This document shows, piece by piece, positions 3,211-63,707 of a stretch of DNA of 64,000 nucleotides. Position 1 is the first letter of the stretch, and the number at the start of each line of letters is the position of its first letter. Source of the stretch: Verrucomicrobiaceae bacterium E54 (GTDB taxonomy: Bacteria; Verrucomicrobiota; Verrucomicrobiia; Verrucomicrobiales; Akkermansiaceae); NCBI GenBank assembly GCA_022548915.1, contig JAKZES010000003.1, forward strand, positions 124,001 through 188,000, read 5' to 3'. The notes beneath the pieces were generated by a model, which saw nothing but the letters and a program-made list of their open reading frames with translations, had not been told where the DNA came from and searched no databases. Both the position numbers and the translations under genes were made by a program.

Positions 3211-3287
<77 letters not shown>

Positions 3288-3292
3288 CTTTC

Positions 3293-19261: not shown

Positions 19262-19302
19262 TTTCCAAACCAAAGCCCGCCCGGTCCGTGCCGCCGGCGG
19301 GC
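19262..19302 (+). repeat. 41-bp direct repeat, left copy (contains hairpin)
   Basis: It matches 26361-26401 with two mismatches in 41 bp. It includes the hairpin CCCGCCCGGTCCGTGCC...CCGGCGGG. The two copies bracket the whole minus-strand secreted-protein block. Confidence 0.85.
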
Positions 19303-26360: not shown

Positions 26361-26401
26361 TTTCCAAGCCAAAGCCCGCCCGGTCCGTGCCACCGGCGGG
26401 C
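26361..26401 (+). repeat. 41-bp direct repeat, right copy (contains hairpin)
   Basis: Near-identical to 19262-19302. Here the hairpin is followed by TTCTTC and the C/A-rich leader of the sliding-clamp gene, so this copy seems to sit in its native context. Confidence 0.85.
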
Positions 26402-37637: not shown

Positions 37638-37689
37638 GACCAAGTCGGAGTGTAAGCGTTTGCGCGAAGTGCGTCGATCTCGTCGCCGC

Positions 37690-37732
37690 CGGACAAAGTC
37701 CCCGACTTCGTCTCATGGGGGACCTTTGTCCG
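37690..37732. repeat. Inverted repeat next to transposase remnant
   Basis: CGGACAAAGTCCCC and the complement of GGGGACCTTTGTCCG form 14/15-bp arms separated by about 13 bp. It may be the end of the lost insertion element or a terminator; there is no T run. Confidence 0.5.
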
Positions 37733-37767
37733 TCGCTCCTCAATCTCCTTATTCCCTGACCAACTCT

Positions 37768-38172
37768 TCAAGGGGAGGCTTTCACAGCCTTGGCCCGGGG
37801 CGTGCCGGCCATCTCAAGGGCGTCGTGGGTCTCGTCGATGACAGAGGCAGGGTCGTGCCCCTCCCTCCGGGCGGATTCGAGAACGAAGCAGACCCGCCGC
37901 AGGCTGCGGTTGGCTGCGCGCTTGCCCTGGAGTCCGTCGAGGCGGTCCGGGTCGATCAGCCCGATGACCTCGCCAACGATCTCGAAGGGGATTTCTGGGG
38001 CTTCCGGTTCCGCCAACTGCCGGGTGGATTCCGGAATGGGGGGAGGGGGCGTCTGAATGCGCTGCTGGGCTTCTGTAGAAGCCTCCACACGCGACGGAAT
38101 CGGGTTGCTGCGGTCGCAGGACGGGAATAGCAAGAGGAACCCCAGAATGGCCGCCTGACGCTTCAGAACCAT
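37768..38172 (-). CDS. Putative lipoprotein, 134 aa
   Basis: A signal with a near-lipobox (LGFLLLFPSC) precedes a Pro-rich spacer and a helical C-terminal half (GKRAANRSLRRVCFVLESARR). No family is recognised. The start overlaps the stop of the 85-residue gene upstream by 10 bp, indicating an operon. Outer-membrane or periplasmic location is inferred from the lipobox. Confidence 0.5.
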   Translation of the reverse strand: MVLKRQAAILGFLLLFPSCDRSNPIPSRVEASTEAQQRIQTPPPPIPESTRQLAEPEAPEIPFEIVGEVIGLIDPDRLDGLQGKRAANRSLRRVCFVLESARREGHDPASVIDETHDALEMAGTPRAKAVKASP

Positions 38173-38420
38173 GACGCTGGCGTGGTGTTCATGGCGAGGG
38201 ACGCCTCTCCACTACCCGGCATCACGCGCTCCTGCGTGGAGCCGTCCGCGCGATGCACGAGCAGCCTCGAATCCTTGGCCAGCATCCCGGCGCGGTGACG
38301 GGCGTAGTCTGCTGCACTGCGGACGTTTCGGAACCAGTGGGTGCCGACGCCTCCCAGCATCTCGCCGGACAGGTTCACGCCGTCCCGGGTCGGGCGCGGA
38401 TGGATCTTAAAGGTGTGCAT
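38163..38420 (-). CDS. Small DUF2188-like protein, 85 aa
   Basis: The product has a short beta-hairpin start (TFKIHPRPTRDGVNLS), then HWFRNVRSAADYARHRAGM and LLVHRADGSTQER. This layout recalls DUF2188-type proteins (strand, helix, HxxDGxxxE). A decayed copy, HWLRSVRGAADYARHRAGML, lies at 41430-41515 in the same orientation. Function unknown. It forms the left flank of the first of two similarly bracketed loci. Confidence 0.55.
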   Translation of the reverse strand: MHTFKIHPRPTRDGVNLSGEMLGGVGTHWFRNVRSAADYARHRAGMLAKDSRLLVHRADGSTQERVMPGSGEASLAMNTTPASWF

Positions 38421-38478
38421 GCGCAGATCTTGCGTTCATTTGCTGGTCGATTTCCAGCCCGCCTGTCAGAAATCCGGC

Positions 38479-39234
38479 GTGAAAAGCGCGATTCAATCCA
38501 TCACAGGCAGGCTGGGTGTTGGGAATGCTCTGCTTGGTGCCATTTTGCTCTGCGGAACCTCCGGGCTGTGCCTGTCGGCGGAATACAAGACGCTGATGCG
38601 ACCGGGGCAGGGTGAACACGTTTTGCTGGAAGTCGAAGCGGGTTCCGTCGTCGAGGTGACGGCAGGCGGTGGAGTCTTTTATGGAGGAGACCTAGGGGAC
38701 TACACTGAACAAGGGGTCGATTTGTTCGACATTGGAATAGTGAATCGGGGCGACTACATGATGGGCTTCGAGAAGTTCTCGCTGACCTACTACGGTGGCC
38801 CGGGATTCGTTACTCTTAAGATTATGACTTCCGAAGAGGCTTCACTGGGAGACGTGATCGTCTCCTCGCCAGATCAAATGAATCAAATTGATGTGCCTAA
38901 TGGCTACGGTCTGAGAGTTATCGTGGCACCGGTTGAGAGCTGGCAAGGCGAACGAAACGGCACCCTTATCGCTGTGACACCGGGCGAGGGAGTTGAAGAG
39001 GAAGTGCAATACCTCAATGGTGTTAAGAGCGGCGACCTCATTGCAGGCTTCCCTCAGTTCCGGATGTGGGGATACGGCATCTTCAAGTTGGTGCTCTTGA
39101 ATCCACAAGCAATGACATTGACGATTGAGCAAAGCGACAACGCCCAAGCCTGGGAAACTCTTGAGAGCAAACGAATCGAGGCAACGGAAGCGAAGCAGTT
39201 CTTTCGTGCGCGTCTTGAGTCGGTAGGCGAATGA
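38479..39234 (+). CDS. Secreted protein, 251 aa
   Basis: The GTG at 38479 is chosen because a signal peptide follows (LGVGNALLGAILLCGTSGLCLSA); upstream in-frame codons overlap the divergent small gene. The mature part is beta-rich with VLLEVEAGSVVEV and repeated GDL/GDY turns. It ends in a segment (ARLESV) like the terminal strand of other secreted proteins here. No family is recognised. Its stop overlaps the start of the TPR-like gene. Confidence 0.55.
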   Translation: MKSAIQSITGRLGVGNALLGAILLCGTSGLCLSAEYKTLMRPGQGEHVLLEVEAGSVVEVTAGGGVFYGGDLGDYTEQGVDLFDIGIVNRGDYMMGFEKFSLTYYGGPGFVTLKIMTSEEASLGDVIVSSPDQMNQIDVPNGYGLRVIVAPVESWQGERNGTLIAVTPGEGVEEEVQYLNGVKSGDLIAGFPQFRMWGYGIFKLVLLNPQAMTLTIEQSDNAQAWETLESKRIEATEAKQFFRARLESVGE

Positions 39235-39587
39235 GTTCAGAAGCAGAAGGACTGGCCGATCTCGGCCTCTGGCAGGACGCGTGGGATGCGCTCGAATCCC
39301 TCCCAGCAGAGGATCGAGCCGAACCTGCCGCCCTGCGTGTCCGGATGAGGTGCTGCCCCGGGGTCGGTGCCTGGGAGATTGGCGAGCACCTTGCCCGGGT
39401 GCTCCGTGATGGCGGGGAGGAGGATCGGGAGGTCGCGGCCCGGTTCTACCACCAGCTGGCGGTGTTCCATGCCCGGGTCGGCAACCGGGAGGCGGCGGAG
39501 GGGGCGATCAAGTCAGCCGTGGATGCCTGGCCCGACATCCGGATTGAGCTGATCGAGGGCCCGGTGCTGGCGGAGGAGATCTGGTAA
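39231..39587 (+). CDS. TPR-like helical protein, 118 aa
   Basis: Helical hairpins of TPR type are visible: LGLWQDAWDALESLPAEDR, AWEIGEHLARVLRDGGEED, FYHQLAVFHARVGNREAAEG. It has no signal peptide. The ATG overlaps the stop of the secreted protein. The last 36 codons reappear, slightly diverged, at 43662-43772 (GNRDAAEGPIKSAVDAWPD). Function is unknown; TPRs usually bind partner proteins. Confidence 0.6.
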   Translation: MSSEAEGLADLGLWQDAWDALESLPAEDRAEPAALRVRMRCCPGVGAWEIGEHLARVLRDGGEEDREVAARFYHQLAVFHARVGNREAAEGAIKSAVDAWPDIRIELIEGPVLAEEIW

Positions 39588-39597
39588 GGGGGGGGGG
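39588..39597 (+). repeat. Poly-G tract (10 G)
   Basis: Ten consecutive G directly follow the TAA of the TPR-like gene. Such tracts are prone to slippage; since it lies after the stop codon it cannot change that gene's frame. Confidence 0.8.
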
Positions 39598-39664
39598 TCG
39601 CCCTCTGGGGGCCTTCGTCTCGGGGTTGGCGTTGACCCTTAGACTTGGAGAGCTAGAAGTAGTC

Positions 39665-39886
39665 GTGAAGCCGTCACCAGTGAAGATCTTCTGCGTAACC
39701 GACGAGCCCGAGCGGATCCTTGAGTCGGGTTTCACCGACGAGGAGGTGATGGACTTCGGATCGGGAATGTTTTGCAGCAATAACCCAGCTGCCGAGGCGA
39801 CCTTGAAGACAGGAGCAAAGAGCCTTAGCTTAACGCTTCCGGATTCACGTTCGATGAGAGCCGGTCCCGCGAAACGGAGCCAGTGA
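39665..39886 (+). pseudogene. Possible 5' fragment of a gene interrupted near the IS3 element
   Basis: A GTG-initiated frame encodes VKIFCVTDEPERILESGFTD and then ~45 more residues before stopping 4 bp from the insertion element. The first ~35 residues look like genuine protein sequence, while the remainder does not. It may be the start of a gene whose rest was lost on IS insertion or an earlier deletion. Confidence 0.3.
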
Positions 39887-39912
39887 GCTTGTTATGATGT
39901 GGTAGGCTTCGG

Positions 39913-40254
39913 GTGGCGTCAGCCAACCGAAGAACCGTGAAGAGAAAGAGAAGAACGCACAGCGCCGAGTTCAAGGCGCGCATCGCCTTGGAAGCCCTGA
40001 AGGGCATCAAGACCATCAGCCAGATCGCCCAGGACGAGGGGATTCACCCCGTCCAGGTCAGCCAGTGGAAGAAGGACCTGCAGGAGCGGCTTCCCGAGGT
40101 GTTCGCCTCGGGCAAGGCCGGTCGTGACGAGGCCCGCAGGGCCGAGCGCGACCGGGAGCGCCTGGAGCGCAAGGTCGGCCAGCTGGTCATCGAGAAGGAA
40201 TTCCTCGAAAAAAAGTGCGGGGAGCTGGGAATCGATCTGAACGAAAGGCCATGA
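39913..40254 (+). CDS. IS3-family transposase OrfA
   Basis: The 113-residue product has the OrfA helix-turn-helix (THSAEFKARIALEALKGIKT, ISQIAQDEGIHPVQVSQWKK), which recognises the terminal repeats, followed by a leucine-zipper-like helix. It starts at a GTG. Near the 3' end a run A AAA AAG at 40209-40215 lies in the correct frame for -1 slippage into orfB. This would yield the OrfAB fusion transposase. Confidence 0.85.
   Translation: MASANRRTVKRKRRTHSAEFKARIALEALKGIKTISQIAQDEGIHPVQVSQWKKDLQERLPEVFASGKAGRDEARRAERDRERLERKVGQLVIEKEFLEKKCGELGIDLNERP
40209..40215 (+). promoter_or_regulatory. Programmed -1 frameshift site (A AAA AAG)
   Basis: Seven-A slippery heptamer in the orfA frame. The orfB frame is open across it (-1 relative), as is typical of IS3 elements. 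Confidence 0.75.
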
Positions 40255-41081
40255 TCGAGAGAGAGCATCCCCAGCTGAGCATCCGCAAACAGGCCAAGAT
40301 GCTCGGAGTGAACCGCAACCGCCTCGAAGCGAAGGAGCGGATCAGCGACGAGGATCGCGCGATCATGCGCGATCTCGACGAACTGCACACGCGCCGACCG
40401 GTCTATGGCCAGCGCAAGCTGGCCGTGGAGCTGCGCAAGCGTGGCTGGAAGATCGGGCGCAAGCGGGTCAGGCGACTCATGGAGATCATGGGCATCGTGG
40501 CGGTGGCACCGAAACCGCGCACCAGCGTGCCGGACAAGTCCCACCGCACCTATCCGTACCTGCTGCGGGGCCGGGAGGTGTCCGCGCCTGACGAAGTCTG
40601 GTGCGCGGACATCACCTACATTCCGATGGGCCGCGGCTTCGCCTACCTGGTGGCCATCATGGACTGGAAGAGCCGAGCCGTGCTCTCGTGGCGGATCTCC
40701 AATACCGCCGACACTCGCTTCTGCCTGGAGGCGCTTGCCGAGGCGGTGGCGGTTGCCGGGCGCGCGCCTGACATCTTCAACACCGACCAGGGCTGCCAGT
40801 TCACCAGCCGCGAATGGACCGGTACGCTGGAGGAACTCGGCGTGAGGATCAGCATGGACGGTAAGGGCCGCTGGATGGACAACGTCTTCATCGAGCGTCT
40901 CTGGCGCAGCCTGAAGTGCGAGGACATCTACCTGCGGGACTACCGGAATCTGGCGGAGCTGGAGGCCGGGGTCTCACGCTGGATGGTCGATTACAACCGG
41001 GAGCGCATCCACGAGGCGCTCGACTACGAGACGCCTTGGTCGATCTACCGGCCGCAACCCGAGCTTGCCGAGGCGGCCTGA
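40251..41081 (+). CDS. IS3-family transposase OrfB (DDE integrase domain)
   Basis: The 276-residue product has an HTH_21-type N-terminus (IRKQAKMLGV, RRPVYGQRKLAVELRKRG) and the DDE core. The aspartates lie in VWCADITYIP and FNTDQGCQFTS, and the glutamate in DNVFIERLWRSLK. It can start at the ATG overlapping the orfA stop, or be produced by frameshift as OrfAB. It cuts and joins DNA strands during transposition. Confidence 0.9.
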   Translation: MIEREHPQLSIRKQAKMLGVNRNRLEAKERISDEDRAIMRDLDELHTRRPVYGQRKLAVELRKRGWKIGRKRVRRLMEIMGIVAVAPKPRTSVPDKSHRTYPYLLRGREVSAPDEVWCADITYIPMGRGFAYLVAIMDWKSRAVLSWRISNTADTRFCLEALAEAVAVAGRAPDIFNTDQGCQFTSREWTGTLEELGVRISMDGKGRWMDNVFIERLWRSLKCEDIYLRDYRNLAELEAGVSRWMVDYNRERIHEALDYETPWSIYRPQPELAEAA

Positions 41082-41429
41082 AGAGATGAAAACCAGCTCC
41101 GGAAAGTTGCCCACAAGAACCCGTCGCTCCGACGAGCTTCGTCCCGGCCCATTCTCGCGCCGGAACCTTGTGGACAACTTTCCTCCAAGGGCGGAACCAA
41201 CCGAACCAAAACCACCAGCCACCCGGGCCACCGCATCATAACTTAAATCCGCCCGGCACTGGCTCCGGGCAGGGGACCGGCTCTATGTGGGGCACGACAC
41301 CGCTGTGCATCGAAATCAATGAGTTGCTCCTCGATGATTTTCTCGTTTCAAGCTATCCCTACTGGGATCCCGTTGAAGCCCCGGAAGAGGCGGCGGATAT
41401 CCCCTGTCCAACTCCTCAGGGGGACGCTC

Positions 41430-41515
41430 CACGGTCAACATCCCGGCGCGATGACGGGCGTAGTCCGCCGCGCCGCGAACCGAGCGGAGCCAGTGGATGC
41501 CGAAGTGCAGATCCT
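41430..41515 (-). pseudogene. Remnant of the DUF2188-like small gene
   Basis: Read on the minus strand this encodes HWLRSVRGAADYARHRAGML, matching HWFRNVRSAADYARHRAGML of the gene at 38163. No start, stop or rest of the gene is preserved. The remnant directly abuts the 3' end of the 675-residue protein gene. Confidence 0.75.
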
Positions 41516-43542
41516 TATGGCGTGACTACAACCTTCAGCCTCGCAAAAAGCTGATCGCCATCGGAAATGCTGGCGGGCAGCGAAACCGTCACCTTGTCAA
41601 TACCGCGAGCAAATCCATTAGGCTCTTCCGTGATTGTAATCTGATCCTTGCCTGGTCCCTGATGGACCGCTGCCGTCCATCCAACAAGATCGCTACAATA
41701 CTCCAACTGAATTTCTGTGCTCGCGTCATCTTTTGCCTCAACGAAGCGGCGGAACACGATCTCGACCTTGTTATCCTCCGAATCGGTGTCGAGTACCTCA
41801 GGCCCCAATGATCCATCGTCACCTCCATTGGTTGGATCACCTCCGAGGACCCACTCTAGACCGGTCGCAAGTCCTCCATGATCAAAATCATGCTCTGGAT
41901 CTGTGTTCGTCAATCGGTTCTGGAATATGGAGCCAACCCATGCGCTGTAGCGACTGGCAAGGGCAGACGCTTCGTGGAGTCCAATCATTGATCGGCCCAT
42001 CGCGTCTCCAACAAGCATGTATGTCTCAGCGTTGTAGTTGTATCGTCGTAAATAATTTCCGGGAGAAATACCTGAATCTCGCCAATATGGACGAGTGTCA
42101 ACGGACATTACATTGTTTTTGAACTCAGGGTAGTTAGCTGAATCACCATCCACAGCCATTTGTGCATTAGCAATCTGCAAAAAATTTCCACTCTGAGCAT
42201 CGCCAAGAAAGCCTATAGTGGCCACAACAAAGGGAGTGGATAAACTGGATCGCCCAGGGTATCGATCAGCGAAGTATTGTCTCAAACTCTTAATCAACCT
42301 TACAAGGTTCTCCTCGTATTTGATGGTGTGTGCCGCCTGCGTCTCAACCTTTCCGGCAGCGTCACGATACCCTTGCCACCACACGTAGCCGGCAATTTCA
42401 AATCCCTGGCCCGACCAATCTGGGTACTCAGTCGAAAAATTGTCGAGAATATCGACGACGTTGTCTACCGAGTAGACAGACCAGAAATTAGTCCACGATA
42501 AACCAAAGCCAGGCTCTGAATCACTATCTGAAAAATGAGCCGATTTACTAACGTAAAGTACTCCATTATGAAGAACAGGAAAATTGGAATTGTACAAGTA
42601 AGAATCTTGCCATGATCGGGATACAAACATATCGTTCTCATCGAGAAAATAATCATTGTAGTCCTTGCCAGCATACCACCCGATGGGTATTGGGTTTGAG
42701 CCCGTAGCCCAATATTCGGGTGATTCTCCGTGACCGGGATAAGTTAAGCCAGTGCCGGCGTCAAACCTAGGACTAGATGGTGGGAGCAGGTCCCATCCGA
42801 GCGCTCTGTTTCCTGTAGAGGCCCGGATCAAAAGGACGGGTTCGTCGTGAAACCAGCCAAGGACGCTACCGAAACCTAGCTCTGGACCAAAGTATCCCGG
42901 TCGCGCGTCGTACCATGTCGGAGAAAGCAGGCTCTTCTCGGCGTTGTTTCCGTTTGATTCGTAGGCGTGTATTCGAACATCCTGCCTGGTCTCCCATCCC
43001 CAATCAGGTTCACTGACTGAGGTCTGAAGGTAAGTGAACTTGTGTTCACTTCTAACGATTTGTTCGAGACTTCCTTGTAGCGTTCCTCCGACAAAGCCCC
43101 AGCCATTCATCCCGTAGGATCCTGACATGATGTAGACTTTTACGGGCTTTGTGGTTTCTCCGGGAGATTGATCGGGATTGGGAAGAGGGTAAGGTATGCG
43201 CGGCTTTTTGGATGAATCATTTGGATCTGTGAAAGAGGCATAGACCTCGTACCAGTCACCTGCACCGTCTTCATCGGAATCTGGGTTTCTTGGAGACGTT
43301 CCGGTATTTTCAGGAGAAACGTAGATCCCTGTTCCAGTCTCGGCGAAGTCTTCCAAGCCGTCATGATCAGTATCAAACCCGAGGACATTGAATGTGCTGG
43401 AAAGGAATGCAACCGCTGCCAAATAATGGGGTAGCGGAAGAACAAATTGGTTGTACGAACCTTCCCTTTTTACGGCTAGGACGATGGAGGACCAGAGGCA
43501 GCGGATGGAGGATTTGGATGTTGTGGAAGGGGTGAATTTCAT
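41515..43542 (-). CDS. Secreted SGNH/sialate-O-acetylesterase-like protein, 675 aa
   Basis: A signal-like segment (LPHYLAAVAFLSSTF) and two TSP3 calcium repeats (DTDHDGLEDF, DSDEDGAGDW) precede a ~400-residue domain like the carbohydrate esterases of the SASA (DUF303) group. Block I is VYIMSGSYGMNGWG, and a later block is GYVWWQGYRDAAG. In active enzymes block I reads GQSNM with the nucleophilic serine; here that position seems to be tyrosine. The C-terminus has the shared IQLEYCSDLVGWTAAV domain. DNA is less GC-rich than the backbone. Enzyme activity is doubtful. Confidence 0.6.
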   Translation of the reverse strand: MKFTPSTTSKSSIRCLWSSIVLAVKREGSYNQFVLPLPHYLAAVAFLSSTFNVLGFDTDHDGLEDFAETGTGIYVSPENTGTSPRNPDSDEDGAGDWYEVYASFTDPNDSSKKPRIPYPLPNPDQSPGETTKPVKVYIMSGSYGMNGWGFVGGTLQGSLEQIVRSEHKFTYLQTSVSEPDWGWETRQDVRIHAYESNGNNAEKSLLSPTWYDARPGYFGPELGFGSVLGWFHDEPVLLIRASTGNRALGWDLLPPSSPRFDAGTGLTYPGHGESPEYWATGSNPIPIGWYAGKDYNDYFLDENDMFVSRSWQDSYLYNSNFPVLHNGVLYVSKSAHFSDSDSEPGFGLSWTNFWSVYSVDNVVDILDNFSTEYPDWSGQGFEIAGYVWWQGYRDAAGKVETQAAHTIKYEENLVRLIKSLRQYFADRYPGRSSLSTPFVVATIGFLGDAQSGNFLQIANAQMAVDGDSANYPEFKNNVMSVDTRPYWRDSGISPGNYLRRYNYNAETYMLVGDAMGRSMIGLHEASALASRYSAWVGSIFQNRLTNTDPEHDFDHGGLATGLEWVLGGDPTNGGDDGSLGPEVLDTDSEDNKVEIVFRRFVEAKDDASTEIQLEYCSDLVGWTAAVHQGPGKDQITITEEPNGFARGIDKVTVSLPASISDGDQLFARLKVVVTP

Positions 43543-43661
43543 GGGGAATAGGGTCTCCGCAAATCGCCTAATCCAAAATCAGGAGCGGAACAAGTTTGAA
43601 CTTAGGAGTGTGTCGGTTCCAGGTGCCAGGAGTATTTTTGGGCCCTCGATTTCTCAAGAGG

Positions 43662-43772
43662 ATCGGCAACCGGGACGCGGCGGAGGGGCCGATCAAGTCG
43701 GCAGTGGATGCCTGGCCGGACATCCGGATTGAGCTGATCGAGGATTCGGTGCTGGCGGAGGACGTGTTTTAG
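43662..43772 (+). pseudogene. Remnant of the TPR-like gene (3' end)
   Basis: The last 36 codons and stop of the gene at 39231 recur here (IGNRDAAEGPIKSAVDAWPD...), with the same reading direction. The upstream two thirds are missing. Confidence 0.8.
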
Positions 43773-43985
43773 GGAGAGGTGAGGATGGCGACCCGCCTCC
43801 AGTCACCCGCAAACGAGGTTCTCGCGCAACTTCGCGCCCGGTGCTGAAGCGCTCCCATCCGGATCACCCGGAAGATCGCAGAGGGCGCAAACGGGAACGT
43901 TTGGGCGGCGATGGGGGATTTGGAGGTGTGGATGGGGTGACGTGCGGCGCTCAGCCTGATCGCGACCGGACCGCCGAAGGGCTGC

Positions 43986-45113
43986 TCAGGGATCGGGTTG
44001 GAGGGGGTATGATCCGTCCGTTTGGCTCTTCCCGGGCGTCCTGTCAGCTACGGCGGAGTCCTTGTGTCCGTTGAGAAGAAATGGAACCACTGCGTAGGCA
44101 ATCCCTAAGACTAAGAGGAGGATGAAGAGTTTGCCGAGGCACCCGGACCGCTTTTTCTCCTGGCTCGATCCGATCTCATCATCGTAGGGAGGCTTGTTTA
44201 TGATGTCCGCAAGAGGCACATGGCAACTACTGCAAGTAGTCGTTCCTCGCGCCCAAGGGGCATCGCACCTTGGACATTTGAACCACTTGAAGCCACAAGA
44301 GAGACAAGTGAGGGCACGCGGGTGTAGGCCTCTTCCGCATTTCGGGCAGGGTGTTTCTATTCCTTCCTCGCGTGGGCGCTCTCCTCGGCTGCACGGCGTG
44401 CAAACACCAGCGTTTCTTTCCGAAATTGCCACGAAAATTAGCGTGCCGCAGTTTGTGCAAGGAACTTGAGTTTCAATATCTATTCCCGGATTTCCGCGTC
44501 TTAAGATCTCCCTTTTCGCTATTTGCCGAAATGAAGAGCAATCGATCTTATCTTTCTCAATTGACTTTGTTGTTTCATCAATCCAGCCAAATGCATCCTC
44601 GTATTTGTAGTGGTCCTCCTTAATAAGGTTGTAATTAATATCTTCTATTGTTGCTAGTTCGAGCAGTGTTTCGTCAGATAAAACAAAAGAAGTTCGTTCG
44701 AGAATTTTGCTTATCCGCTTCGCGACTACCGAGACCTCATCGAGGGATTCTACCTCGATAGTTTCGCATTTACTTACTAGCTTTCGCAGCAAACCGGGGG
44801 TAAGCAATTTGGCAAATACACCCAAGGAATCTACAACCTCGGTTTCGCTGTAACGGTTTGAGGCGACTCTAACCTGAATAAACGCAAATAGTGGTATTGT
44901 TGGGCTATTGTCCTTTAACGGGTCTATTGCGTAGCTGTCTTTTATTCTAGCTAGGACTTTGATGACCCTGAACATTCTCTCAATGCTCACGGTGTTTAAT
45001 GCCTGGACCAGTGGATCTATAGCCGGTTCCCCGACTGAAACTAAGTCATCCGATGCTTTGGCCCGTAGCCTGTAGTCCTTTTCGTTAATCAGCGTGTTTA
45101 CAAGGGAGTGCAT
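43986..45113 (-). CDS. HEAT-repeat, zinc-ribbon membrane protein, 375 aa
   Basis: The N-terminal ~220 residues are helical with HEAT-like repeats (DYRLRAKASDDLVSVGEPAIDPLVQAL). A zinc-ribbon array follows with CTNCG, CTPC, CPKCG, CLSCG, CPRC and CSSC pairs. A single transmembrane helix (LFILLLVLGIAYAVVPFLL) lies near the C-terminus, with a short polar tail. It is probably an inner-membrane protein with its ribbons in the cytoplasm. The DNA of the N-terminal half is AT-rich relative to surroundings. No operon partner is visible. Function unknown. Confidence 0.6.
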   Translation of the reverse strand: MHSLVNTLINEKDYRLRAKASDDLVSVGEPAIDPLVQALNTVSIERMFRVIKVLARIKDSYAIDPLKDNSPTIPLFAFIQVRVASNRYSETEVVDSLGVFAKLLTPGLLRKLVSKCETIEVESLDEVSVVAKRISKILERTSFVLSDETLLELATIEDINYNLIKEDHYKYEDAFGWIDETTKSIEKDKIDCSSFRQIAKREILRRGNPGIDIETQVPCTNCGTLIFVAISERNAGVCTPCSRGERPREEGIETPCPKCGRGLHPRALTCLSCGFKWFKCPRCDAPWARGTTTCSSCHVPLADIINKPPYDDEIGSSQEKKRSGCLGKLFILLLVLGIAYAVVPFLLNGHKDSAVADRTPGKSQTDGSYPLQPDP

Positions 45114-45623: not shown

Positions 45624-46094
45624 ATGATCAAGCGCATCGTCAGTGGAGGTCAGACCGGAGCCGACCGGGCCGGGCTGGATGCCGCGATTGCCGCAGGCGT
45701 GCCGCACGGCGGGTGGTGTCCCAGGGGGCGGAAGGCCGAGGACGGACCGATTCCCGAACGCTACAACCTGACAGAGACGAAGTCGGCATCCTGCCTGACC
45801 CGCACGGAATTGAATGCGAGGGATTCAGACGGGACGGTGATCCTCACCATGGGAGCGCTCTCGGGCGGCTCGAAGTGGACGGCGGAGTTCGCCGACAAGC
45901 ACGGTCGCCCGTGGCTGCACCTGCGGCTCGACGGGATGACCGACGAGGGCGCTCAGGCGGCGGTTAGAGCCTTTGTTGAGGAGAACGGGATTCGGGCGCT
46001 GAACGTGGCAGGATCCCGGGGCAGCAAGGAGCCTGAGCTCAATGGGCGGGTGAGATCGATTCTCGTGGCTGTTCTGCGCGAGTTGGGCGGATGA
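45624..46094 (+). CDS. YpsA/SLOG-type (putative molybdenum carrier) protein
   Basis: The 156-residue product has the Rossmann-like start IVSGGQTGADRAGLDAAI and then HGGWCPRGRKAEDG, ERYNLTET and DGTVILT. These are hallmarks of the PF12694-type, circularly permuted YpsA-like SLOG family. SLOG domains bind nucleotides or nucleotide-derived ligands and appear in several phage-conflict systems. It stands alone on the plus strand and converges on the DUF4326 gene across a shared hairpin. The old 'molybdenum carrier' name should not be taken as evidence of function. Confidence 0.75.
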   Translation: MIKRIVSGGQTGADRAGLDAAIAAGVPHGGWCPRGRKAEDGPIPERYNLTETKSASCLTRTELNARDSDGTVILTMGALSGGSKWTAEFADKHGRPWLHLRLDGMTDEGAQAAVRAFVEENGIRALNVAGSRGSKEPELNGRVRSILVAVLRELGG

Positions 46095-48289: not shown

Positions 48290-49945
48290 TTACTTTTGAA
48301 TTGTCTCCCGTTCATCGCGGGAGGGTAGGGTTGGTTCTTGTCCGCAAAGGCGGATCACTTTCTTGGGTTGTCCCCGTAGGCCGGTTCGTTCCGGCACGAT
48401 CTCGAAGACCTCGGGATACTTCTCCGCAAGGCCCTTCAGGCGGGCCACTGAGAGCCCGCTCGCGTTTCGGCTGACCACGTGGAGTGGTCCGTCGTGTCCC
48501 ATCAGGAACAATTTCAGATCATCCCTCTCGGCTTCGTCCGGTGTTCGGTCGTCCAGGTGGATGATTTCGTAGGTGTCGAGGTGCGCGCGGAACACGATTC
48601 GGCACGCGGCCTCGACATCATTCTCGGTCACCTCCGGCATGGAGGCTCCGATCTCCTTCAATGCCGCCAGCACCACGGCCATTCGAGCCGCGTTTTCGCG
48701 CCAGCGCACTGCCAGCAAGTCCCGGAGCGAATGCTTCGGCACGCCCGCATCTTCGAACGGGTGACGGATGGCCTTGAGGCGCTCCATGGCACCGGGCGTG
48801 AAGCTGATCTCAAGGGGGGCACCAGAACGATTGGCCAGAGTGCGGTGACGCCAGATGCCGATGTGACGTTTCCAGCTCGCTGAGGCCTCGTTGATCGCGC
48901 CGCCCGCAGAGAGCCAGCAACCCGGCTGCTCCCCTTCGACCGTGAAGGCAAGGAAGCGTCCGAGAACGCCCGACATACGCAGGAGGCGGTCCTGCCAGAA
49001 CCGCTCGGCAATGTCCGGCTGGATTCCGAACAGGCAGCTTATCGTCGCCCTCTCTGCGCGGCGGTTCAAATGCTTGGTGACCCGGATGGCATGAAGGGGG
49101 TCTCCGCTGTATCCGCGCAGCCATACGTTGCGCTCGGCCTCGCCAGGTTTGCCCTTCGAGCTGATCATCGCCTCCAGATGGGGGCGACCATCGGCGGTCA
49201 CCACGAAGATCGCGTTCCGGAGGGCGTCCGCCAACGCCGCCTCCCGTGCCTGTGGGGTGGCGTCATCCACGATGAACCGGAACTGACGAGTCAGGTCCTT
49301 CGACCGCTCGTTCTCCAGTCGTCTTTCGAGGTGCGCGGTGTGTTGCGCGATCTCGAATGCTTCGGGATCATCGGCGAGCTTTCGCTTCGCCTGTGCCAGC
49401 TTGGCTTCCAGCTGCAGGATCCGTGGCCGGATCTCGACATCTCTGCGCCGTGAGACGCTGCGGATCGTCCGCTCCTGCAGCTCGTGGACCGGGCGCACGA
49501 CGGCATCGTGCGAGCGCGATTTGCCGCTTCCGGTGGCCCCGATCTGCTGGATGAACAGGTTAACAGGGACAATCCCGCCGTCATAATTGCCAACCACATG
49601 GCCGGCCAGGACGCCCGACATGGTGCCGAGCATGGCCGAGGCGGTCATGTCGGATGGGATGCCAAGGTGCTCCTCGTGAAGGCGGCAAAACTCCTCCGCC
49701 CACGGTGGAAGCAGTGGAGCAAGAGGCTCCTTCGTTACGCCGGCGACACATGGAGCGTGCTCGACGTTGCCCTTGGCCTCGTCACGAATCTGGGAGAGGA
49801 CTTCAGGCCAATCTCCATCGCCAGACGCGGCGCCTGGATCAGGCGAGTCGGTCTGGTTCTCTCCGGCGGCGGTGCCGTTAATCAGGCCGACTGGTGCGTC
49901 GGCGTCATCGTTCGGGACCTCGAGGGTCTCGGGTTGTTGTTGCAT
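48290..49945 (-). CDS. DUF3987-family ATPase
   Basis: The 551-residue product matches the DUF3987 family, often annotated as primase-associated or YfjI-like. It has LPPWAEEFCRLHEEHLGIP, then ASAMLGTMSGVLAG, and a Walker A IGATGSGKSRSH (~135-146). A coiled coil follows (~170-215), then FIVDDATPQA, SCLFGIQPDIAERFW and RMSGVLGRFLAF. Members are found in phages, satellites and conjugative elements, typically near primases. It heads the minus-strand group with the DUF5131 and DUF4326 genes. The exact replication role is not established. Confidence 0.75.
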   Translation of the reverse strand: MQQQPETLEVPNDDADAPVGLINGTAAGENQTDSPDPGAASGDGDWPEVLSQIRDEAKGNVEHAPCVAGVTKEPLAPLLPPWAEEFCRLHEEHLGIPSDMTASAMLGTMSGVLAGHVVGNYDGGIVPVNLFIQQIGATGSGKSRSHDAVVRPVHELQERTIRSVSRRRDVEIRPRILQLEAKLAQAKRKLADDPEAFEIAQHTAHLERRLENERSKDLTRQFRFIVDDATPQAREAALADALRNAIFVVTADGRPHLEAMISSKGKPGEAERNVWLRGYSGDPLHAIRVTKHLNRRAERATISCLFGIQPDIAERFWQDRLLRMSGVLGRFLAFTVEGEQPGCWLSAGGAINEASASWKRHIGIWRHRTLANRSGAPLEISFTPGAMERLKAIRHPFEDAGVPKHSLRDLLAVRWRENAARMAVVLAALKEIGASMPEVTENDVEAACRIVFRAHLDTYEIIHLDDRTPDEAERDDLKLFLMGHDGPLHVVSRNASGLSVARLKGLAEKYPEVFEIVPERTGLRGQPKKVIRLCGQEPTLPSRDERETIQK

Positions 49946-50447: not shown

Positions 50448-52556
50448 TCAGACTTTCAGGTATGTGACCTCGACCCCCCGCGTCAGTCGCGCCTCCTGCA
50501 TCGCCTGTTCGAGGGAGAACGGCCCGGTCTCGTACTTCTGGAAGATGTCGAGGCCGCGGTCCATGGTGATCTTCCAGCCGGTGTCGGTGGTGATGTTCCG
50601 GGCGTGGAAGTTCGGGTTGTGGTCGAATTCCCAGCTGAAGGACACCTTGGATCCAGTAAAGGTGTCCACGAGTTGATTGAGATTCTCCTCCTGCTTCACG
50701 CAGGAGTCCGGGTCGGATTGGGTGACCAGGTGCACGGCTACCTCGTCGCCTTCATCGACAAGATCGTGAACCATCTGCAGGAACTCCATGAGATTCCGGG
50801 CCTGGAAGAACATCCGAACGTAGGGGTCCCGGATGGTGATCTCGGAGGCCCCCTTCAGATGATCGGCAAAGAGCCGGCGGTAGCTCCATCCCTTGGAATT
50901 CTCAGGCACGACAACGTGCCCGGTCTCGGGAGCCGCCTCTTGGGGCTCCGATGCGGCTGCAGACGGCTCATCGCCCCCAGCAGGTTCGCCTTCATCTCTC
51001 GCTTCGTCGGGATTCGGAACAAGGCGCGGGGCAGCGAAGGCAGGATACTGGATCTCCTCCGGGGTAATGACCGTGACCTCCTTGTTGTCGGCCGCTCGGC
51101 GGAAGATGAAGTCGTGTCGCTTGAAGGTGTCGTCGATCCGGAGGATGTGCTCGCGGACCCTCCGGCGGCACTCCATCGAGAACTGGAGCAGCTCCTCGAC
51201 CTCCTCCGCCGTGGCCTCCGCGTTCGGGTAGATCACCTTCATGAGCCCGGAGAAGGTCTTCTCGAAGCCGGTCTGGTCGCGGGTGGAGACCTCGGAGACG
51301 ATCTTCAGGTGGTCCTTGTAGGCGCTGGTGAAGTCCTCGGTCCGCTGGTGTTTGAGGATCTCCGCCAGGTAGTCGACGATGAAGCCGTAGCCGCTGGTGA
51401 ACAGCTCGTTGCGTACCGGTGAGACCTCCCATCCCGGGCTGAAGGCGTGGAGGCGGTCGAGGAAGGCGGAATCGATGTATTTGTCGGGCAGCTGGTCGAA
51501 GAAGTGAGAGTGCTTGAGCATGTAGGCGACCGACTTTTTGGTGTTGCCCATGAAGACCATCGAGGCCTCGGCACTGAGCTGCTCGATCCCCCGCGAAAAG
51601 GACCGGTTGGCCATGTAGTTCTTCATGATGTCGACCAATCCCTTGTCCACTTTCTTGTCCTTCCCCGCGAACTCGTCGAAGCAGATGGCATCCCAGAATC
51701 CGACCAGACCGATCTTGCCGTTGGAATTGTTGACGAAGAGCTTGGCCGAGCTGACCTCGGAGCCGGAAATGAGGATCCCGTGTGGGGAAAACTCGGCGTA
51801 GATGTGGGACTTGCCGGTGCCCTTCGGACCGAGTTCGATCAGGTTGTAGTTCCGCTCGCAGAAGGGAACGAGGCGGACCAAGGCCATGAGCTTCGCCCGA
51901 CGGCTGAAATGCTCGGGATTCAGTCCGATGCTCTGGAGGAGGACACCGAGCCATTCGTCGGTCGTGAACTTCGCCCTCGCAGCAAGAAACTCTTCCCGGT
52001 CCACTTTCGCCACCTGGATTGGCTTGAGGGTGTCGATGTGCCAAGCGCTTGCCTTGGGATCTTCCGGGACCTCGTAGGTGGCGTCCACGATGCACCAGAT
52101 GCCCCCGACCAGCAGCTTCGGATAGCGGCGGACGAAGTCCTCGGAAACGGGCACCTTCTTGAGCCCCAGGTTGGTGAATTCGGCCTCGTAGTAGCCACCC
52201 TTGTCGTTCAAATCGACCGTCAGCTTGTCGATGACCTTGTGCCGCCCCTTTTCCTTGATGGTCGATCTCACAAGGGCGGCCTCGTTGCGGTGCACGTAGT
52301 GCTTGGCGAGGATCCGCTGGACCGACTCCAGACCTGACTTCAACACCTCTGGGTCATCCGTAGCACAGTGCTGCCCCAGCAGGTATTCGAGCACATAGGT
52401 CGGCACCACGGCGTTTTGCTTGAGCCCCTTGGTGAGATCCTTCCGGACGACCAGTCCGGGGAACACCTCGACGATCTTGCGGTCGAGCTCGGTGAGCGTG
52501 CTGGGTTCGGCTGAGAGGATCTCCGCCGGGTCGGGAGTGTTGTCTTCAGAAGTCAT
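50448..52556 (-). CDS. brxL: BREX protein BrxL with C-terminal MIT_C-like domain
   Basis: BrxL is the AAA+ effector of BREX, long called Lon-like. The 702-residue product has a helical N-terminal DNA-binding-type region and an AAA+ core. Walker A is ELGPKGTGKSHIYAEFS (GPKGTGKS ~243-250), Walker B is AICFDEFAGKD (~291-296), followed by VFMGNTKKS and FLDRLHAF. After an acidic Pro/Ala linker (~515-550), the last ~150 residues match the MIT_C (MITD1 C-terminal, phospholipase-D-like) domain, not a Lon protease: KGWSYRRLFADHLKGA, RNITTDTGWKI and RGLDIFQKYE. The ATG at 52556 overlaps pglZ by 11 bp. Confidence 0.85.
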   Translation of the reverse strand: MTSEDNTPDPAEILSAEPSTLTELDRKIVEVFPGLVVRKDLTKGLKQNAVVPTYVLEYLLGQHCATDDPEVLKSGLESVQRILAKHYVHRNEAALVRSTIKEKGRHKVIDKLTVDLNDKGGYYEAEFTNLGLKKVPVSEDFVRRYPKLLVGGIWCIVDATYEVPEDPKASAWHIDTLKPIQVAKVDREEFLAARAKFTTDEWLGVLLQSIGLNPEHFSRRAKLMALVRLVPFCERNYNLIELGPKGTGKSHIYAEFSPHGILISGSEVSSAKLFVNNSNGKIGLVGFWDAICFDEFAGKDKKVDKGLVDIMKNYMANRSFSRGIEQLSAEASMVFMGNTKKSVAYMLKHSHFFDQLPDKYIDSAFLDRLHAFSPGWEVSPVRNELFTSGYGFIVDYLAEILKHQRTEDFTSAYKDHLKIVSEVSTRDQTGFEKTFSGLMKVIYPNAEATAEEVEELLQFSMECRRRVREHILRIDDTFKRHDFIFRRAADNKEVTVITPEEIQYPAFAAPRLVPNPDEARDEGEPAGGDEPSAAASEPQEAAPETGHVVVPENSKGWSYRRLFADHLKGASEITIRDPYVRMFFQARNLMEFLQMVHDLVDEGDEVAVHLVTQSDPDSCVKQEENLNQLVDTFTGSKVSFSWEFDHNPNFHARNITTDTGWKITMDRGLDIFQKYETGPFSLEQAMQEARLTRGVEVTYLKV

Positions 52557-55041
52557 CGAAGTCGGAGGCAAAGGGTTTCTGGATCTTGATGGGTTGTGAC
52601 CGGTAAGTCACGGTTTGTCGGGTGCCCGGGAGCGTTTCCTCCAAGCGGACCTCGACCGTCTGGTCATTGTATCCGTCTGCGGCCGCCGAAAGCACCACGA
52701 CGTGCGTCGTTTCCCGCGCACGAGTTTCCTCGCTGGTGGAATCGCAGGCGAGGGTCTTCAGTTCGGACAGCACGGTCCCGTCCTTCGCATAGACCCCTAG
52801 TTTGAGCTGCCGCGGCAGGACCTTCGCCGACACCGGTTCTTCCTGGTAGATCGAGAGGGACAGTTGCCCGGTCGTCACCTTGGCCGGCACCCGCATGAAT
52901 TCGACTTCAACCCGACGGGTATCATCGGACCGAGCCTTGTGGATCTTGACGATGGGAACGACCACCTCCTGCAGGCTGAATCCCCCATGCACGTAGCGCT
53001 TGCCCGACCCCTGTCGCGGGAATCGCCCGAGCGAGCGGGGAAATGCGACCTGCCAGTCGCCTTCCAAGCCCAGTGCCTCCGCCGCAAACACCTTCACCGC
53101 CGGGGAATCCGAGATCCCCTTGCCGATGGCGAAACGGCGATTCTTGTTCAGCCACTCTTCCGCATCAGGGAATGCAGCCGCGTCCCCCTCGTGGAGCTGG
53201 TTCTGCTGGAAGAGAAACCCGTGATCGGCGGTGAGCACCATGGTCGTCCAGTTGATGCTGGCCGCCTTCTTCACTATCTGTTCCAGCTCCTCGAAACATT
53301 GCTCCACGGCGTCTGAGGTTTTCGCTTCGGTCGTCGACTGGTCGCCGATCTTGTCGATCACGTTGTGGAACACGTAGACCACGTCGTGGTCCTTCATCAG
53401 CGGTCGGCCTTCGGTCTTTGAGTTCAGTTCCAGGAAATGCTCGGCCTGGACGGCGGTTGCCCGGCCCTCGTTGGCGCGGCCGAGGATGTCCTTCCGGCCC
53501 TCCAGACCCGTGGCGCTGCGCCCATCCACCGAGACGGTGGCATCAGACGCCGAGATCGCGAACCCGCTTCCGGGAAGCAGCGAGGCCATTCCGAGCTGTG
53601 TGTAGGAAGGAAGCGAGGCCAGCATCGCCTCGATGCCCGTCGTCCACCGGTTCTCCGACTTCAACCGCTCGGCGAAGTCTGCCGCCGCCTCGAAGCGCAG
53701 GGCATCCGAGACGATCACCAGCACCTTCTGCCCCTTGCCGGTCACTGCCTTGATCGTCTCCGGGTAGAAGCTCCGCTGAGCCGGCACCGATCCCACCTGC
53801 CAGGATGGCATTCCGACCACCAGATCCGACCATCGGTCGGACAGCGGGAGGAGGAAGTTGTTCAAGTAGCTGCCCTCAACCCATTCCACCACCGCTTCCA
53901 TGACGTTGACCTGCCCGTACTTCCGCTGGTGGTAGCAGAACCGGCGGTAAGCGGTGTCTATCCGCCACCAGCTCTTCGTGTAGCGGCGGAACCCCGCCTC
54001 GGCCGACTCCATGCCCAGCTCGGCACCTTCGAGCAGTTCCCGCAGTTCGATGGCTTGATCCAGCGCCTCGTAGCCATGTCGGTGAGCCTCATGCCAGAAC
54101 GACTGCCGCCGGGCGGTGATCCACTGGCGGAGGTCAGACGCTCGCTCTCCCCGCTGGAAGGCCGTGCAGATACGATGGACGGCGAAGCGCTCGAAGACCT
54201 CAAAAGCATCCGACTTCCCGAGACGCGCAGGGTTCTCGATCCCCGACAGACGATCTTTGATATGGAGCTCCCGCTCCATCAACCCGGACCACGTCTTGAA
54301 GGATTCCCGGTGCGACTTGCTGTCCTTCCAGCGCTGGAGAAATACCTGCGCGTGAGGATGCAACGGAACCCCGTCGTCCAAGGGATTGGCACCACGGAAC
54401 AATTCGACCACGAAATCCCGCATCCCGGGCTCCTGCGGGGCGTAGCCGAACAAACGCCCGACATCCCGCCAGAAGGCGATGACCAGATCGGCGGGGCCGA
54501 GGCAGTCCACCACTGGATCGAGCAAAGGTTCGGCGGCCGACGCATCGAGGAACTTCAACAGCATCCCGTCGATCTCGACGGCCGTCCCGGCAAGCACCGC
54601 CATCATCTTCACCCGGATGTCCTCGACCTCGTCGTCCGACTCGATCAGCTCCTTGAGCCGGCGGGTGTTCTCCGCCTTACGAAAAAAGCCGACATGCTGC
54701 TCGGCAAGGCCGCGGAAGTCGTAGGACACGCCGAGTTCCTGCACCGCCAGCGAAGCCCGGTCGGCCTTGAACTCGTGCCCCTGTAGCACGAGATCCAGCA
54801 GCCAGTTCTCGCCATCGTCCGGCCGGGCCGCGGGAGCGTAAATCAGGAACTTCGCATCCTTCGGGCTCTCCGCGAGGACATGAACCTTGATCCCGAAATC
54901 GTTGTCTGCAAGCCGCAGCTTCTCGACCTCCTCGCTCTCGAACGAATCAAACGCCGATTCCCACTCCTTGGCATCGTCATACCAGAAGATCAGCCGGTGT
55001 CGGCGGAAGAGGTCGGTGAGGCTGTCGTGGATGCGTTTCAT
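52546..55041 (-). CDS. pglZ: BREX protein PglZ (alkaline-phosphatase superfamily)
   Basis: PglZ is a core BREX component with an alkaline-phosphatase-like fold. The 831-residue product has the PglZ metal-binding motifs VLVIVSDALRFEAAADFAE (~440-458) and LTADHGFLFQQ (~603-613). Its N-terminal half is helical, with WYDDAKEWESAF-type BREX start features (FWYDDAKEWE), and a beta-rich C-terminal domain follows. It overlaps the 325-residue gene upstream by 4 bp and brxL downstream, so it is in the middle of one long operon. Length and motifs are typical, and nothing seems broken. Confidence 0.92.
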   Translation of the reverse strand: MKRIHDSLTDLFRRHRLIFWYDDAKEWESAFDSFESEEVEKLRLADNDFGIKVHVLAESPKDAKFLIYAPAARPDDGENWLLDLVLQGHEFKADRASLAVQELGVSYDFRGLAEQHVGFFRKAENTRRLKELIESDDEVEDIRVKMMAVLAGTAVEIDGMLLKFLDASAAEPLLDPVVDCLGPADLVIAFWRDVGRLFGYAPQEPGMRDFVVELFRGANPLDDGVPLHPHAQVFLQRWKDSKSHRESFKTWSGLMERELHIKDRLSGIENPARLGKSDAFEVFERFAVHRICTAFQRGERASDLRQWITARRQSFWHEAHRHGYEALDQAIELRELLEGAELGMESAEAGFRRYTKSWWRIDTAYRRFCYHQRKYGQVNVMEAVVEWVEGSYLNNFLLPLSDRWSDLVVGMPSWQVGSVPAQRSFYPETIKAVTGKGQKVLVIVSDALRFEAAADFAERLKSENRWTTGIEAMLASLPSYTQLGMASLLPGSGFAISASDATVSVDGRSATGLEGRKDILGRANEGRATAVQAEHFLELNSKTEGRPLMKDHDVVYVFHNVIDKIGDQSTTEAKTSDAVEQCFEELEQIVKKAASINWTTMVLTADHGFLFQQNQLHEGDAAAFPDAEEWLNKNRRFAIGKGISDSPAVKVFAAEALGLEGDWQVAFPRSLGRFPRQGSGKRYVHGGFSLQEVVVPIVKIHKARSDDTRRVEVEFMRVPAKVTTGQLSLSIYQEEPVSAKVLPRQLKLGVYAKDGTVLSELKTLACDSTSEETRARETTHVVVLSAAADGYNDQTVEVRLEETLPGTRQTVTYRSQPIKIQKPFASDFDDF

Positions 55042-56015
55042 GCAGGGGGATCTTCGGAGGTTGGAGGCTGCTCGGAGTTCGCCTTCATTTGGGAGACGGA
55101 TACTAACTCAACTTCATCTCCCTCGACGAGAATCAGGTCGGGTTCCTCATCCCCGAATGGTTTGCCCCCTCTAATCGAGCACTTGTCCGTAACAAACTCG
55201 ACCAGCTCTTCAAAGTGGAAGCCGTATCGATCGAGTCCTTTGCCATACAATCCATCAATTCCCTTGGGGTAGTTCGGATACTTCTTCTCGTTGTATTTTG
55301 AATCCATAATGTTGACCAATGCCTTCTCCGCATCCGCTGCATAGGTCTGTTGATCCGGGAATTGCCCAGGCTCAAGCCACATTGATTCAATGTCCTCCTC
55401 AGTAATGCAGGTTTCAAACGTCGACGGTTCTACTTGAAACATGAAAAGCACAAGCTCGTCTGAAACCCTTGCTTCCGGGGTGATTTGCCGTTCATTGGTC
55501 AGGATGGAGGTCCTAGCCTTGTGGCCAGTTCCGAAAAGCCTTTGAAAGCTATCGTTCTCTTTTGAAATCCCGACGTAATGCATTCTGAAGCGCATCAATT
55601 CCCATGGCGACTCAATGCCATTGAGCTCAACCAAATCGTTGAACCACTCGGTCAGGAGAGTATTTGGTGTACACCAGTAGATCGGCTCTTCCTCTGGATT
55701 GATCGGGCTCTTTCTAACCTTGAAGCACCTCGGGCCGATCTCGACCTGGAATGTGTCCGGAAGGTCAAACTGGTCTAGCGCCAAGGAAACTGGACCCACT
55801 TGAATCCCTCCACATTTCAGATTAAACGCGAGAACGCGCGTCTCCTCATCGACCGAGCATTCGTCAAACAAAAGCTCTTCCCTCTGACCCAATACGTAGA
55901 GTTTGCTACTGCGAAGGATATCCCGAACTTCTGGCACCTTGTATAGCCATTCGCCCTCCTGATTCGTGATCGGAGGGTAAACCAGCTTTAGGGCGTGAAA
56001 TCCGAACCTCTTCAC
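55038..56015 (-). CDS. BREX accessory protein, possibly GIY-YIG-like, 325 aa
   Basis: The GTG at 56015 is chosen because AAAGGAGGT lies six bases upstream and the codon overlaps the preceding stop; a longer open frame upstream is a shadow of the 798-residue gene. The N-terminal ~140 residues are beta-rich and unknown. The second half shows YVGIS (147-151), RLFGTGH (159-165), a conserved glutamate in DAEKAL (E230) and YNEKKYP (N242). This spacing resembles the second half of a GIY-YIG nuclease, but the first GIY strand is not clear. Position between the candidate nuclease and pglZ supports a BREX accessory role. Confidence 0.55.
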   Translation of the reverse strand: MKRFGFHALKLVYPPITNQEGEWLYKVPEVRDILRSSKLYVLGQREELLFDECSVDEETRVLAFNLKCGGIQVGPVSLALDQFDLPDTFQVEIGPRCFKVRKSPINPEEEPIYWCTPNTLLTEWFNDLVELNGIESPWELMRFRMHYVGISKENDSFQRLFGTGHKARTSILTNERQITPEARVSDELVLFMFQVEPSTFETCITEEDIESMWLEPGQFPDQQTYAADAEKALVNIMDSKYNEKKYPNYPKGIDGLYGKGLDRYGFHFEELVEFVTDKCSIRGGKPFGDEEPDLILVEGDEVELVSVSQMKANSEQPPTSEDPPA

Positions 56016-58408: not shown

Positions 58409-58438
58409 CAGTTCATTGCTTCCTGTTGAATCCCGGGA

Positions 58439-58534
58439 TCATGCCGCGCCCCTGCCGATCTTCGGAAAGCGGATATACCCGACATCATCGACGTCGAGAG
58501 CCTCTGTGATGGCGATCTGAATTTGTGGTGACAT
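58439..58534 (-). CDS. Small ORF in the BREX operon, 31 aa
   Basis: An ATG 20 bp after the FRG gene's stop opens a 31-codon frame encoding a peptide with a central ITEALDVDDVGYIRFPKIG. It fills the only gap larger than a few bases in the operon. It could be a leader peptide for translational coupling or a genuine small protein; no homology is recognised. Confidence 0.35.
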   Translation of the reverse strand: MSPQIQIAITEALDVDDVGYIRFPKIGRGAA

Positions 58535-58554
58535 GGATCAGGCGGGGAACGTTT

Positions 58555-59778: not shown

Positions 59779-59782
59779 CGGT

Positions 59783-63688: not shown

Positions 63689-63707
63689 TCGGGAGCAGCA
63701 GATTGGT

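Follow-up and report, generated by a model that had tools for sequence, protein, structure and literature searches.

Two secreted-protein-like genes between intact and decayed copies of the same small genes: probable patchwork growth of a tRNA-Arg island in Verrucomicrobiaceae bacterium E54

Why should two different secreted-protein-like genes in the genome of Verrucomicrobiaceae bacterium E54 lie between copies of the same two small genes, intact in one case and decayed in the other? The two loci occur in a stretch of 64,000 nucleotides (nt) (NCBI GenBank assembly GCA_022548915.1, contig JAKZES010000003.1, positions 124,001 to 188,000 of the forward strand), which is referred to here as the window and to which all coordinates without a contig or locus label refer. 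The flanking pair consists of a DUF2188-like and a TPR-like gene, and a preliminary description of this DNA took the arrangement for cassette replacement by recombination in these conserved flanks. The analysis presented here favors, with reasonable confidence, a different history, in which both loci belong to an island module that is present twice and has been broken by single-gene insertions, an insertion sequence (IS) and decay. The locus looks like ordinary patchwork growth of an island rather than a clear swap of genes between matching ends, and such growth and decay would explain the striking repeat pattern.

Locus 1 contains both small genes in intact form. The DUF2188-like gene (85 amino acids (aa), 38163-38420, minus strand), recognized from the list of open reading frames (ORFs) and by DNA searches, is followed by cargo 1, a secreted-protein-like orphan gene from the same list (38482-39234, plus strand) with an uncertain start and a frame open from 38341. 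The TPR-like gene (118 aa, 39231-39587, plus strand, also from the ORF list), for which the Pfam family TPR_14 remains below its cut-off, overlaps the stop codon of cargo 1 with its own start (ATGA). In locus 2, cargo 2, a SASA-esterase-like gene of 675 aa (41515-43542, minus strand), lies between two remnants that were delimited by repeat search, profile and BLAST and that are arranged and oriented like their intact counterparts in locus 1; the two cargo genes are thus on opposite strands. The DUF2188-like remnant (41428-41503, minus strand) is an internal piece of the gene corresponding to profile positions 26-49, and the TPR-like remnant (43660-43779, plus strand) is its 3' third plus a few bases, corresponding to profile positions 79-118. 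A mechanical direct-repeat search of the window pairs the latter with 39475-39594 (120 nt, 86%) and the former with 38272-38347 (76 nt, 79%), and finds no repeat between cargo 1 and cargo 2. In a local BLAST of four contig sequences, including 138.8 kb of the window's contig, the TPR-like repeat reached an E-value of 6e-34 (91% over 103 nt) and the DUF2188-like repeat one of 5e-10 (80% over 71 nt), so neither is due to chance. Two loci with one flanking pair and unrelated cargo, as first described, are therefore real, and so are both remnants, which had been placed correctly to about 15 nt before their precise form was established. The name of the first small gene does not stand, as Pfam gives no match to DUF2188 (PF09954), whether the window protein is searched at E-values up to 1 or a second copy, from contig C122, at E-values up to 0.1; DUF2188-like is kept here as a label.

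Both small genes are part of a longer module, which the preliminary description overlooked together with its island setting. The module comprises an HNH-like lipoprotein gene and the DUF2188-like gene on one strand, and the TPR-like gene and cpYpsA on the other. In the window, the HNH-like gene is truncated to 134 aa (37768-38172, minus strand; lipoprotein signal by eye), compared to longer copies of 238 aa on C122 and 236 aa on contig C180, in which HNH_4 scores below the Pfam cut-off. The last module gene, cpYpsA of the SLOG family, lies at 45624-46094 on the plus strand (PF12694, E 4.6e-54). DNA searches of the assembly (5.9 Mb, 255 contigs) detect, remnants counted, four places with the TPR-like gene and five with the DUF2188-like gene. 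On C122 and C180 the two genes are divergent, with their start codons some 60 nt apart and no cargo between them, and these two pairs are 85% alike over 1.2 kb, intergenic gap included. Contig C229 holds only half of the DUF2188-like gene and the beginning of its HNH-side neighbor, with a cpYpsA-like stretch (67% over 402 nt) 15 kb off on the same contig. The order from the TPR-like gene to cpYpsA is collinear in three places: on C122 the latter follows after about 60 nt, in the window a zinc-ribbon/HEAT-like gene (43986-45113, minus strand, assigned from the Pfam scan and the sequence) stands between the TPR-like remnant of locus 2 and cpYpsA, and on C180 two other genes stand between the TPR-like gene and a cpYpsA remnant. 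Over 284 nt, the window cpYpsA shows 83% identity with its C122 counterpart, which is itself truncated to a frame of 71 aa. Variable content in the slot between the DUF2188-like and TPR-like genes is thus a real feature of this genome, with two filled and two cargo-free copies, and it is the presence of both states of one module in one genome that makes the edges of the insertions readable. Adjoining the window copy, an 84-nt stretch with a hairpin (37685-37768) ends at the end of the truncated HNH-like gene and recurs at 77% in the relative G085 (L172:10190-10273), about 3.6 kb from the same tRNA.

That tRNA is the integration site of the island in which the window lies, an element of 78.5 kb between tRNA-Arg and a perfect 49-bp repeat. 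The tRNA-Arg gene (ACG; 3211-3287, plus strand; ARAGORN) contains most of an attL-like sequence at its 3' end (3243-3291, plus strand), the perfect direct repeat of which lies outside the window at 81789-81837 when the window numbering is continued past its end. Beside the far repeat lies an integrase gene (L125:16287-17537, minus strand; phrog_1, E 2.9e-30), in which the N-terminal SAM-like domain alone passes the Pfam cut-off and which is of the tyrosine type by eye. The site was compared in six of the 17 other genomes of the genus. In G085, only a few bases separate tRNA-Arg from the tRNA-Pro behind it, an arrangement that represents the empty site, while in E54 this tRNA-Pro is found at 84180 in the continued numbering, some 81 kb from tRNA-Arg; in G048, the shared tRNA-Pro stretch starts some 330 bases past tRNA-Arg, and the four remaining relatives did not show the shared downstream sequence. 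Repeats at the tRNA end, an adjoining integrase and the uninterrupted site in G085 together identify a tRNA-integrated island. The C122 copy of the module likewise lies in an island, as two perfect 54-bp copies of tRNA-Leu sequence bracket 16.75 kb there and an integrase gene stands beside the far one. On C180, the module copy is about 6 kb away from a third integrase gene, close to the end of the contig, and no end repeat came to light there. Two further observations concern the tRNA-Arg site. Between the far repeat and tRNA-Pro (81838-84179 in the continued numbering; the end of L125 and the start of L126), there are 2.3 kb containing a gene that looks methyltransferase-like by eye; this stretch is unlike G085 and is perhaps a second small insertion. 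In G093 (C6:55670-80439), a second tRNA-Arg 3' end (64 nt, 98%) at a distance of 24.6 kb suggests another island at the same tRNA.

The composition of the inserts differs from that of the module. The module genes of the window and both remnants have a GC content of 0.65-0.71, and the HNH-like and TPR-like genes on C122 and C180 have one of 0.64-0.70, compared to 0.64-0.65 for the chromosome beyond the island. Cargo 1 (0.54), cargo 2 (0.50), the zinc-ribbon/HEAT-like gene (0.49) and the two genes inserted on C180 (0.49 and 0.54) are all lower, and a 150-nt GC profile drops where homology between the copies breaks at both edges of cargo 2 and at the right edge of cargo 1. The longest words common to the insert edges are 10 nt, inside the range of shuffled sequence (maximum 11), with the left edge on C180 covered over 20 nt, and one simple attC-like pattern had no match in 37.6-46.3 kb, an integron integrase not having been searched for. 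Since the edges have no common word beyond the shuffled range and no attC-like match, insertion was probably illegitimate rather than site-specific.

The TPR-like remnant of locus 2 (108 nt compared) is 87% identical to the gene of locus 1 (94/108), 74% to that of C122 and 58% to that of C180. Of the 29 sites that distinguish locus 1 from C122, it agrees with locus 1 at 19, with C122 at five and with neither at five. The DUF2188-like remnant (79 nt) is 77% identical to locus 1 (61/79), 71% to C122 and 73% to C180. Judged from these alignments, the two window copies could have arisen by tandem duplication or through the union of two related islands, and a recent exchange through both flanks is at odds with their divergence. 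Separately, the TPR-like remnant begins near codon 82 of the gene (39475-39481, 43660), and the TPR-like gene of C180 ceases its DNA likeness to the C122 and window copies at codons 80-84 (L002:1730), near the start of the remnant; this may be a shared breakpoint or a coincidence.

The history that we consider probable can be outlined as follows. Several islands with integrase genes in this genome carry an accessory module of HNH-like, DUF2188-like, TPR-like and cpYpsA genes, and the tRNA-Arg island holds it twice in tandem, the second copy presumably being derived from a duplication or from a related island. The left copy consists of the HNH fragment and the intact DUF2188-like and TPR-like genes, and the right copy of the two remnants and cpYpsA. 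Unrelated low-GC single genes would have entered the DUF2188-like/TPR-like junction of each copy, and another such gene the TPR-like/cpYpsA junction of the right copy; an IS3-family element would have come to lie between the two copies, of which the right one would have decayed. By parsimony, the cargo-free state is presumably the ancestral one.

A number of points weigh against this account. Two cargo-free copies stand against two filled ones and no outgroup has the pair, so that the polarity of the change rests on parsimony, and the ATGA overlap of cargo 1 with the TPR-like gene resembles an organized operon more than a random insertion. The GC steps are blurred, which slightly lowers our confidence: to the left of cargo 1, successive windows read 0.53, 0.61 and 0.56, and the GC content stays near 0.65 for some 200 nt past the TPR-like remnant, before the zinc-ribbon/HEAT-like gene is reached. 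Furthermore, other secreted-protein-like genes of the island are low in GC as well (0.52 for a gene of 2385 aa), so that low GC may follow the class of gene and composition alone is no proof of foreign origin. The DUF2188-like remnant does not group clearly with locus 1 (12 sites to 7, 1 with neither), and on a stricter set of sites, at which C122 and C180 share a base that locus 1 lacks, it divides 8 to 6, with 1 neither, and the TPR-like remnant 6 to 5, with 3 neither, a count weakened by the strong divergence of C180. Because the grouping of the former is weak and the strict sites split almost evenly, a single tandem duplication is unproven.

Alternatively, the module could be a portable landing pad, a small skeleton that would travel with various integrating islands and acquire single low-GC genes time and again at its two inner junctions. 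The DUF2188-like/TPR-like junction has received an insertion twice, both times in the window, and the TPR-like/cpYpsA junction in two of three places (the window and C180). We regard this proposal as unlikely.

Cassette replacement, the original proposal, is improbable as well. Here, the DUF2188-like and TPR-like genes would serve as homology arms, and homologous recombination would swap cargo among loci or strains. This agrees with the identical layout, in order and strand, of the flanks of two unrelated genes, with the breaks of homology near the start codons of both flanking genes in locus 1, and with the occurrence of the pair at four places, one of them decayed, next to the DUF2188-like/HNH half-copy on C229; the later common ancestry of the two TPR-like ends could also reflect recombination there. 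However, the flanks are 77% and 87% identical and thus short of near-identical, the breaks in locus 2 fall inside both flanking genes, two of the four places are cargo-free at this junction, and no other DUF2188-like/TPR-like locus was found in the family, genus or phylum samples. What stands of the proposal is the variable cargo in one slot of this genome, and what does not is the exchange through flanks of such divergence, with no sequence common to the edges beyond chance. For its confirmation, the preliminary description had looked to breakpoints at the flank edges and to additional loci in which the same flanks enclose different cargo: C122 and C180 turned out to be cargo-free at this junction, the insert edges have no sequence in common beyond chance, and the genomes searched, one per species, yielded no other cargo locus. 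This is one half of what it had itself named as refuting replacement; the other half, an origin of the two remnants in independent short duplications, is not demonstrated by the analysis.

The searches behind this statement sampled relatives at the level of species, with strain-level variation outside their view. The DUF2188-like profile matched three of 244 family genomes at E 1e-3, three of 18 genus genomes at E 0.01 and one of 288 phylum genomes at E 1e-4, E54 itself being counted in each case and being the one in the phylum; apart from weak matches, the gene is thus confined to E54. The other two family matches are weak and lie inside frames of 1195 aa, and none of the weak matches adjoins a family match to the TPR-like profile. 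The latter profile matched 15 of the 244 family genomes, again including E54. In the genus the TPR-like gene is multi-copy and varied in its surroundings, with 18 matches in G006, 10 in G079 and 8 in G101. The 40 regions around its copies in relatives, where genes were called by a simple length and composition script with false small frames among the calls, show mixed neighbors (Ku-like, exonuclease/ligase-like, BrxL-like, integrases and small families, named by eye) and no constant partner among those listed. The HNH profile matched 37 of the 244 family genomes, own included, many of the matches being short. Among the 20 HNH loci listed, one of them from E54, a TPR-family gene lies nearby in two of the 19 others (L138 and L141) and a match to the DUF2188-like profile (A1) in none; at L134, a small gene divergent to the HNH gene matches DUF2188 at 18.6 bits, below the cut-off of 22, and a profile comparison of that gene with the DUF2188-like gene of the window gave no support. 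A search of the contigs of named genomes with the TPR alignment returned one locus, L050 of Zhihengliuella (33 residues, 45%), and neither a plasmid search with the TPR-like gene nor a phage search with the DUF2188-like gene returned a match.

Another interpretation, which we consider very unlikely, is a toxin-immunity layout, in which a variable secreted protein is followed by its immunity or partner protein, encoded by the TPR-like gene, and pairs without cargo are orphans. In addition to the ATGA overlap in locus 1, an HNH-family gene of another genus (G074, L138:1408-2525) has the same 4-nt overlap with a TPR-family gene, a lipoprotein-like gene in G064 and G039 ends 19-29 nt ahead of a TPR-family gene, and the family is multi-copy, with up to 18 matches in one genome. 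However, other TPR copies are preceded by Ku-like or exonuclease/ligase-like genes (by eye) or by no convincing gene in the same direction, and cargo 2 is SASA-like, runs opposite to the TPR-like gene and matches no toxin family above cut-off (Tox-HDC 12.2 bits, cut-off 21). Least probable of all is site-specific capture at the module junctions by an integron-like or other cassette recombinase. In its favor, three intergenic junctions of the window each hold a single inserted gene, and one C180 junction holds two genes; against it, the edge words and the attC-like search give it no footing, and inserts are found on both strands, a rarity among integron cassettes.

The element proposed to have entered between the two module copies was likewise overlooked at first; it separates locus 1 from locus 2. 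It is an IS3-family element on the plus strand with approximate ends at about 39890 and 41245, set by eye from imperfect inverted repeats. Its orfA (39913-40254) and orfB (40251-41081) have the overlapping frames, the HTH_Tnp_1, HTH_21 and rve domains in Pfam and the inverted ends of the family, which bears out its membership. IS3-family elements produce a target duplication of 3-4 bp; at the loosely defined ends seen here, such a duplication is not clear. At E 1e-3 the assembly yielded this copy alone, though its 255 contigs could hide others.

The cargo genes themselves offer few functional clues. Cargo 1 has a single short and weak C-terminal match in 115 other relatives and none in the Pfam and NCBIfam scans, and its single-sequence AlphaFold model (mean predicted local distance difference test (pLDDT) 35.7) is useless. 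Cargo 2 belongs to a large family that is present in 94 of 116 genomes, E54 included, when the best candidates per genome are scored, and that has 19 matching stretches in E54, cargo 2 itself counted. Its identity to its best relatives is 41-54% over long stretches, although the SASA family (PF03629), at 16.4 bits, stays below its cut-off of 24.8, and the motif GQSN is missing. Where 15 of 16 other aligned loci have GQSN, cargo 2 reads GSYG, the sixteenth locus (L103) being misaligned there, three of the 19 loci being unaligned at the site and the paralogs of E54 being left out. The serine of GQSN is the nucleophile, and if this holds for the aligned motif, its replacement makes cargo 2 probably not an active esterase. 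This is the second label to be corrected, after that of the small gene.

Modular genomic islands of Pseudomonas with defense hotspots (PMC12629846) similarly combine defense genes and variable genes among conserved stretches. The present island differs in that its repeated module is seen in one genome only; its tRNA site and end repeats come from the analysis given here. Among the titles listed in a literature search, none dealt with the HNH/DUF2188-like/TPR-like/cpYpsA module, and to our knowledge the module is no recognized defense system. Phage morons are single genes of other composition between conserved genes, and the lower-GC single genes at the intergenic junctions of a conserved block are comparable to them, although the block here lies on an integrase-bearing island.

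Elsewhere in the island, the BREX genes brxL, pglZ and pglX, with two other genes between them, occupy 50448-63913 on the minus strand, and brxC, brxB and brxA follow beyond the window (L125:898-5630; both sets from PADLOC). The C122 island carries an MmeI-type enzyme, as well as a relative of the DUF3987 primase/helicase-like gene found in the window by Pfam (48290-49945, minus strand). Finally, two neighboring genes of the window share 939 nt at 72% (8082-9020 and 10768-11706), and a 41-nt repeat (95%; 19262-19302 and 26361-26401) brackets a stretch with two large genes.

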